Shown here: piece after piece, positions 52,548 through 53,102 of the stretch | Layout: each line of letters opens with the position of its first letter | Numbering within the stretch: the first letter of the stretch is position 1 | Source: Halorubrum depositum | Lineage (GTDB): Archaea > Halobacteriota > Halobacteria > Halobacteriales > Haloferacaceae | DNA: 64,000 nt | Reading direction: 5' to 3' | Assembly: GCF_007671725.1 (NCBI RefSeq) | Contig: NZ_VCNM01000002.1 | Location: 1 to 64,000 of the forward strand | Made by a program: the position numbers and the translations under genes | The notes under the pieces: generated by a model | Told to the model about the DNA's origin: nothing | The model's database searches: none | What the model saw: only the letters and a program-made list of their open reading frames with translations

Positions 52548-52608
52548 ACATTGACGTGTGGTGCGACGGTCGTTTTTAAGCTATCGCTACTGGTGTTGCA
52601 GTAACCAT

Positions 52609-52678
52609 TTCGAAAGCCCCAGCCGCTCGGAGATACGTAGTTGACGCCGGATCGACGGTGACTCTTCGAAAGCCCCAG
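52609..52678 (+). repeat. Direct 14-bp repeat TTCGAAAGCCCCAG
   Basis: Two identical 14-bp copies (52609-52622 and 52665-52678), 56 bp start to start. They are the left part of the hairpin-rich element and may be its processing or binding boundary. Confidence 0.65.
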
Positions 52679-52708
52679 TCGCGAGGACTCGCGCGGCTCG
52701 GTGTCGTT

Positions 52709-52729
52709 CGAGACGCCTTCGGCGTCTCG
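52709..52729 (+). other. Perfect 9-bp-stem hairpin
   Basis: CGAGACGCC and GGCGTCTCG flank a TTC loop. It is the tightest of the hairpins in the element, with a stem that would be stable at high salt. Confidence 0.6.
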
Positions 52730-53102
52730 TGATGACGTGAGAGCTTTGCTCTCTCGAACCACGCTCCTCGCTCGCGGTGCTCGCTGCGGTGCTACCGTCG
52801 CCGGGCTTCGCCCTCGCGACTGCCCCTTTGAGTCCCCCCCGCAAAGTACCGCCGGAAGACGGTCGCCTCGCTTCGCTCGGCGCTGCGTCTTCCGTGCTCC
52901 CGCTCGCGCTGCTCGCGGGACCGCAGCCTCACGCCTCCCCAGCCTCGCGGCTCCCTTCGGTCGCCGCGTCCCTCGCACGACGCTCCTCGCGCCCTGCGGC
53001 CGCTCGGAGGCGCGCGCCACCGCACATCCATTATCTGTAATCGTCGCAACTCCCAGTTCTCCTTCAAAATGTCGTCGCCAACGCGGTGAGATCGCCTTCT
53101 CC

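Follow-up and report, generated by a model that had tools for sequence, protein, structure and literature searches.

The spacer downstream of gatE in Halorubrum depositum raises the question of what occupies half a kilobase of DNA on which two genes converge. The window analysed here is the whole stretch of 64,000 nucleotides at positions 1 to 64,000 of contig NZ_VCNM01000002.1 (assembly GCF_007671725.1). In it, the 555-bp spacer 52548–53102 lies between gatE, identified by its GatB/GatE Pfam matches, and an Lrp/AsnC-type gene on the opposite strand. A first-pass annotation, made from the letters alone, had described about 540 bp with no believable gene, holding a direct repeat and four stems preceded by a promoter-like sequence. 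It had suspected a multicopy repeat or a structured RNA in Halorubrum-type genomes.

We found that window positions 52573–53047 are a degraded, composite copy of a multicopy intergenic repeat, whose parts are listed in Table 1. The segment is not unique: the blastn comparison that the first-pass annotation had proposed gave 91 matches in its own genome at E ≤ 1e-3, arranged in blocks, and matches in 47 of 59 relatives (1e-6), including all 34 same-genus genomes.

The codon-usage caller accepted no coding frame in 52548–53102, in line with the expected lack of a gene. A protein-coding origin was rejected because the arm lengths vary freely among copies and the long frames, seen on either strand, are artefacts of high GC content. 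The direct repeat was confirmed: TTCGAAAGCCCCAG occurs at 52609 and 52665, with 0.01 matches expected by chance, and its 23-nt copies are 87% identical. The four stems are also real, namely GAGACGCC-TTC-GGCGTCTC (52710–52728), GAGAGC-TTT-GCTCTC (52739–52753), GGAAGACG/CGTCTTCC (52854–52893), and CCCGCTCGCG..CGCGGG (52899–52919), but they do not form one set: a nested double hairpin accounts for two of them, and a second insert for the others. The promoter-like sequence TTTTTAAG (52573–52580) is a degraded version of a box, TTTATAAR, found again in every 57-bp unit of other copies, and it does not indicate a promoter for the folded strand.

The wear of this copy is visible in both AT boxes, which are degraded, in the outermost P4 pair, which is a broken C-C, and in the two nested double hairpins that interrupt it. 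Modules D1 and X both fold on the minus strand, and the segment has a folding z of −5.7 on this strand vs −1.6 on the plus strand (relative to dinucleotide shuffles).

Table 1. Parts of the repeat copy in the gatE spacer (window coordinates)
Part	Position	Strand	Description
First tandem unit (~56-57 bp)	52573–52628	−	Degraded AT box TTTTTAAG at left end, CGAAAGCCCCAG near right end; direct repeat; 3' side of the element on the folding strand
Second tandem unit	52629–52684	−	Its AAAGCCCCAG is the 3' strand of X helix P4
Module X	52664–52840	−	CM R2, 59.1 bits, E = 2.4e-10; consists of a G-rich leader, helix P4, an internal GGG/GGG loop, a long stem of variable sequence, the conserved core, and a ladder at the apex that is interrupted in this copy
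11-bp stem adjoining P4, 3' strand	52676–52686	−	CCTCGCGACTG on minus; perfect complement of 52812–52822
11-bp stem adjoining P4, 5' strand	52812–52822	−	Perfect complement of 52676–52686
Nested double hairpin in X arm	52697–52763		~65-bp unit also in several other own copies
Rest of X conserved core and ladder	52766–52800	−	Alignment to R2
Second nested insert, two hairpins, between X and D1	52853–52919		Gap in own-copy alignments
Module D1	52920–53027	−	CM R1, 89.7 bits, E = 7e-14; covariation; helix P1 with GA/GA internal loop, variable hairpin P2, conserved GAGGCTGGGGAGGCGTGAGG
Degraded AT box TTATCTGT, then AATCGTCGC	53031–53047		Replaces TTTATAAR..TCGTCGC of other copies

Anatomy of the repeat

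Forty copies of the same genome, three of them in part, were read side by side with that of the window. On the window's plus strand, the order in these copies is one to several units of ~57 bp (TTTATAAR..GGATCGACGGTGAACACCTCCAAAGCCCCAGCCGC), a hairpin arm, CCCCTTTGAGTCCC, D1, and an AT box; about eight units occur in one copy of genome G074. Across three 400-kb stretches, 64 of the 65 unit hits adjoin D1 in a constant relative orientation. In 78 D1 flanks, the AT content is ~0.75 at −13 to −17 of TGGCGCG vs ~0.35 farther upstream.

Module X comprises helix P4 (SAAAG/CTTTS), a GGG/GGG internal loop, a long stem of free sequence, an asymmetric conserved core (CGACGYAAGCACCGC / GAGGNGCGCAGCGAG), and an apical ladder, and its conserved outer boxes are GGGACTSAAAGGGG and GGGGCTTTS. 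The outer P4 pair is C-G in 59 of 80 copies, G-C (the form in other genera) in 19, and C-A in 2. The D1 motif TGGGGAGG stands ahead of X in 16/44 G-type and 53/60 C-type copies, and therefore a D1-like leader predates Halorubrum. Alignments omitted L059 and L072 (no end anchor) and L049, L055, L057b, and L066 (length), and L052, L054, and L064 were excluded from alignment A2. Alignment A3 holds 39 X references, from 34 G-type and 56 C-type copies of suitable length, and the covariance model (CM) R2 was built from 39 sequences.

Smaller hairpin repeats are nested in the element. A double hairpin of ~65 bp (TCGTTCGAGACGCC..GTGATGAC..CTCTCGAACCACG) lies inside the X arms of the window copy and of L039, L046, L049, and L051, and also on plasmids of Natrinema, Halomicrobium, Natrarchaeobaculum, and Natronococcus; it is apparently a separate small repeat family. 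The double-hairpin type ..CTGGCAGCCGGCGGC.. sits inside element loops in both orientations, and the type ..CATCAGAACGC..TTGGCTCACGAGAGC.. is also found within element loops (together in L054, L055, L066, and L067; L049 and L067). The second insert of the window copy is missing from the other own copies aligned, and a similar unit is present in G003. In a sister genus, genomes G083 and G152 (L309, L310, L316, L317, and L323) carry a seemingly solitary D1-like module beside CGGGCGCACCGAGAGACCGCACC, possibly a related element with a different partner module.

Distribution and tests against known families

The repeat family is old, has many copies per genome, and is found in most haloarchaea examined. 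The CM for X matched 123 of 145 Halobacteria genomes of a class sample (about 85%) and 49 of 58 genera, while D1, largely restricted to Halorubrum as modelled, matched 19/145; these class-scan counts are lower bounds, with at most 24-26 candidates scored per genome, and the training sets of R1 and R2 overlap the genomes later searched. X had no match outside the order: the 21 matches in a phylum draw of 147 genomes all came from within it. A pattern scan of 84,980 species genomes returned at least 120 stretches, and all 80 listed belong to Halobacteria or haloarchaeal assemblies, with Natrinema, Natrialba, Haloglomus, Halonotius, Halobaculum, Haloparvum, Halogranum, and Haloarcula among the genera of the matches listed. 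Furthermore, a typical Halorubrum copy used as query found multicopy arm relatives in other genera. The suspicion of a multicopy repeat or structured RNA agrees with what we found: all Halorubrum genomes drawn carry the repeat in multiple copies. The family extends far beyond this genus.

In the 12 genomes scored for X at E ≤ 1e-4, the copies numbered 55 in the H. depositum genome, at least 150 in G065, 140 in G184, 132 in G026, 95 in G058, 78 in both G088 and G179, 40 in G076, 31 in G142, 10 in G019, 5 in G158, and 0 in G043. For D1, we counted 74 copies in the H. depositum genome (E ≤ 0.01), 138, at least 150, 124, 14, and 113 in five relatives, and 1, 2, and 1 in three genomes of other genera. 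Genome G019 holds 10-14 copies in 3.0 Mb vs 113 to at least 150 in its relatives, and this low count could serve as a natural contrast for finding a mobilising factor. Neither the 50,697 phage records nor the viral contigs of the pattern scan gave a match. On plasmids the repeat is rare and nearly always unannotated: among 13 matches, 11 had no feature, 1 fell on a hypothetical protein, and 1 was in a record without annotation.

Rfam gave no match at the gathering score in the whole window, and six loci searched at E ≤ 5 returned only sub-threshold miRNA and viral families, on which grounds Rfam families were rejected as the identity of the repeat. PATEs have near-terminal palindromes related to IS605-type transposons, and neither terminal inverted repeats nor target duplications. 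When four copies of the element were compared by blastn with 31 Y1 and TnpB loci, nothing was found at E ≤ 1e-3. The published PATE of Halorubrum virus HRTV-DL1 showed only chance matches of 9-14 nt and no match to the D1 HMM. A relation to IS605 ends or to this PATE was rejected, since neither comparison revealed similarity. The Y1 transposase domain PF01797 is absent from 7 of 29 genus genomes (that of H. depositum, G002, G004, G015, G017, G018, and G027), and all seven carry the element; TnpB has one match in the H. depositum genome. A literature search that included six sequence strings, and beyond which lay most subscription papers, found no description of the family, so that its absence in print is unproven.

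One strand is selected to fold

The identity of the repeat and its strand-specific fold are close to certain. In the apical ladder of X, 2-bp Watson-Crick rungs alternate with tandem G.A/A.G steps, and closure is mostly by GNA triloops. An exact length rule describes 77 of 116 distinct apical segments; within these 77, 421 of 450 rung pairs are Watson-Crick (24% in shuffles, at most 28%), with 19 GU and 6 AC, and GA/GA accounts for 138 of 148 steps. In a wider apical set, 120 of the 130 segments form symmetric hairpins, with 110 triloops, of which 79 are GNA and 90 are closed by C-G, and 10 tetraloops, of which 9 are GNYA and none GNRA. P1 tetraloops are similar (8/9 GNYA, 0/9 GNRA), and P1 triloops show no GNA bias (7/33).

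Multiple copies with compensatory stem changes, which the first-pass annotation had proposed to look for with covariance models, were found in both modules. For X, 93.8% of the cells are paired vs 73.8% in shuffled and 35-49% in slid alignments, and 22 of 33 pairs changed on both sides; for D1, folded on the minus strand with the GA/GA loop in P1, 98.0% of the cells are paired vs 89.6% shuffled, with two-sided change in 9 of 22 pairs. In neither case did any of 500 shuffles reach the score. The unpaired core bases of X are invariant across genera.

Selection acts on one folded strand. On this strand, GU exceeds AC in D1 (61 vs 2), in X (48 vs 19), and in the P4 stem of 58 distinct arms (18 vs 3). 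We considered a C-to-T strand mutation bias as the cause of this one-sided wobble. At paired D1 sites, C>T changes are 37/544 and G>A 9/576; at unpaired D1 sites, C>T changes are 4/192 and G>A 39/992, with no C>T excess. As the unpaired sites lack a matching bias, the one-sided wobble is not a mutation bias, which was rejected.

The nature of the folded strand is less clear, and we regard ssDNA as slightly more likely than RNA. GNA and GNNA loops are stable loops of DNA, and GNRA is a stable loop of RNA. This leaning rests on the apical loops, mostly GNA/GNYA and never GNRA, and on the lack of a promoter at the right distance. Against ssDNA counts the failure of the DNA energy model to yield the ladder, which is the optimal fold under the RNA model for most of the six X copies listed. 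G.U tolerance fits both RNA and ssDNA. A quadruplex formed by the G-rich leader (GGGYGGGACT, GGGG, GGGG) in the high-potassium cell is a speculative addition.

Turnover and candidate mechanisms

No predicted gene overlaps X in 104 copies. Copies lie in both orientations, and their orientation relative to neighbouring genes is mixed. Four head-to-head X pairs are separated by gaps of 36-81 bp, and one opposite-strand pair lies 492 bp apart. Runs of one orientation along the chromosome were rejected (33 runs vs 31.4 expected, in 62 copies listed for G065).

The first-pass annotation had also seen hallmarks of a non-autonomous mobile element without terminal inverted repeats, and this fits what we observed: occupancy of orthologous sites varies between species. 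Two species about 87% identical share 11/16 and 11/11 testable sites, and the comparison with the window's genome gave 1/12 and 2/11 sites, or 1/2 and 2/3 starting from the window's genome; this occupancy is D1-based, and a D1 loss is scored as an empty site even where other parts may persist. At least seven other species have the element downstream of gatE; in three species the spacer there is only 10-22 bp long. We caught no clean-ended insertion or target duplication, the single good empty site being already worn, and empty sites do not fix the exact ends because the spacers beyond the element fail to align.

At the 8 orthologous sites listed, most arms differ in sequence, with one case of near identity and one of inversion; arms are therefore exchanged and flipped. 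In the gatE spacer of G031 (L127) and near 86.7 kb in G073 (L288), the X arm is inverted within intact outer stems, which suggests recombination or template switching inside the palindrome. The best pairs among own copies are just 76-88% identical, which indicates no recent burst. Other gatE spacers differ: that of G034 (L140) holds a different 26-bp tandem array with TTATAAGG cores (GGTCCAGTCGGTAACGCCCTTATAA), and those of many Halorubrum species, including G007, G012, and G016 (L108, L114, and L119), have apparent open reading frames and no element.

Several known repeats resemble this one in part. REP/BIME sequences with their RAYTs are high-copy intergenic hairpins, often in inverted pairs, with strand-specific folding, a RAYT-type Y1 transposase, and a GTAG motif. 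The present repeat shares with them the high-copy intergenic hairpins, the opposite-orientation pairs, and the strand-specific folding, but X alone measures about 105-170 nt and is much larger, and the H. depositum genome has no Y1 match and no RAYT. The BOX elements of pneumococcus are modular repeats with a variable number of internal units; modularity, variable unit number, and covarying stems are alike, and sequence, domain of life, and fold are all different. Integron attC sites have RYYYAAC/GTTRRRY core boxes and a partner integrase. Variable sequence with conserved structure, a hairpin on one strand, and a variable terminal structure are common to both, whereas no core boxes or cassette arrays were recognised here, where the outer boxes are GGGACTSAAAGGGG / GGGGCTTTS. 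IS605 omega-RNAs and sense-overlapping transposase RNAs are haloarchaeal structured RNAs linked to mobile DNA, a description that the repeat may share, but unlike omega-RNA it has no TnpB partner or similarity. MITEs have terminal inverted repeats common to an autonomous transposon; none were seen in the copies read, in which the element ends are only roughly placed. The Haloquadratum PATEs/SMRs are described with no terminal inverted repeats, with near-terminal palindromes, and with small hairpin elements nested in palindromes (Dyall-Smith et al. 2011, PMC3119063). They and the present repeat are haloarchaeal, non-coding, multicopy, and palindromic, and host nested small mobile repeats; no terminal inverted repeat was seen in the copies read here. 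The present repeat differs in that no IS605-like ends and no tie to TnpA/TnpB were found, and it has a class-wide conserved fold, a GA ladder, and, in Halorubrum, tandem 57-bp units.

The explanation we favour, which we rate slightly below an even chance, is a non-autonomous REP/PATE-like repeat working via a folded single strand handled by a trans-acting enzyme. On this view the repeat would persist non-autonomously: much as happens with REP hairpins, the ends of IS200/IS605, or attC sites, a haloarchaeal enzyme acting in trans would recognise its folded single strand when copies are made, inserted, or exchanged. Its absence from phage records and viral contigs, unlike many mobile elements, speaks against it, as do the missing clean-ended insertions, the lack of a recent burst, the lack of a Y1 match in the H. 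depositum genome, the outcome of the DNA energy model, and the P1 triloops without GNA bias. A multicopy structured ncRNA, whose minus-strand transcript would fold and act in trans or bind a protein, the copies being dispersed RNA genes, is possible but somewhat unlikely. It would account for the covariation with one-sided G.U tolerance, for the lower RNA folding energy of the folding strand in 76/77 X copies, and for the high conservation of the unpaired core and G-rich segments. However, when haloarchaeal TATA spacing is used to place the start, the AT box by D1 would set it within helix P1; 21 copies from other genera have no AT-rich box upstream of X; and the mixed orientation to neighbouring genes, the lack of GNRA loops, and the arms flipped within otherwise intact copies also disagree with RNA genes. 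The lack of a fitting promoter, the two orientations, the species turnover, and the arm exchange together make us prefer the REP/PATE-like reading over a dispersed ncRNA.

The remaining explanations are less probable. A cis-acting spacer element at gene ends, such as a bidirectional terminator or insulator kept where genes converge, is improbable: with contexts assigned by a home-made codon-usage caller, convergent is indeed the commonest Halorubrum context (17/40 and 26/51 copies in two counts), but tandem (16/40) and even divergent (6/40) contexts are frequent, convergent is the rarest in other genera (6/40), and species with 10-22-bp gatE spacers manage without the element at the same site. 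That the repeat is itself a PATE, a degenerate IS605-type element mobilised by TnpA, is very improbable despite the features just described for Haloquadratum, given the lack of similarity to the 31 Y1/TnpB loci and the Halorubrum virus PATE, and the 74 and 113 D1 matches of G000 and G015, which have no Y1 match. Least probable of all is neutral hairpin debris, in which DNA-level quasi-palindrome correction would keep complementarity without selection. The wholesale replacement and inversion of arms and the small double hairpins accumulating in loops would suit it, yet such correction is strand-blind and the wobble is one-sided with a clean unpaired-site control, the unpaired core is invariant across genera, and rung and GA spacing is quantised.

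A more ambitious reading, which we consider unlikely, is a class-wide haloarchaeal element whose working form would be a folded single strand on the GA ladder (2-bp rungs, tandem sheared G.A, GNA loop) beside a G-rich, possibly quadruplex, junction suited to the molar-KCl cytoplasm, and which would be moved or exchanged by a putative enzyme. It would represent a separate kind of ssDNA-based (or RNA-based) archaeal mobile repeat.

Annotation and assembly are affected by the repeat, because its copies are usually unannotated gaps. Found in 123/145 genomes, often at tens to more than 100 copies, and absent from Rfam, it would rank among the commonest non-coding features of an archaeal class. Its strand-specific GA-ladder fold is a testable handle on the spread and recombination of archaeal repeats, and it also probes single-strand exposure in haloarchaeal cells and which protein reads folded strands.
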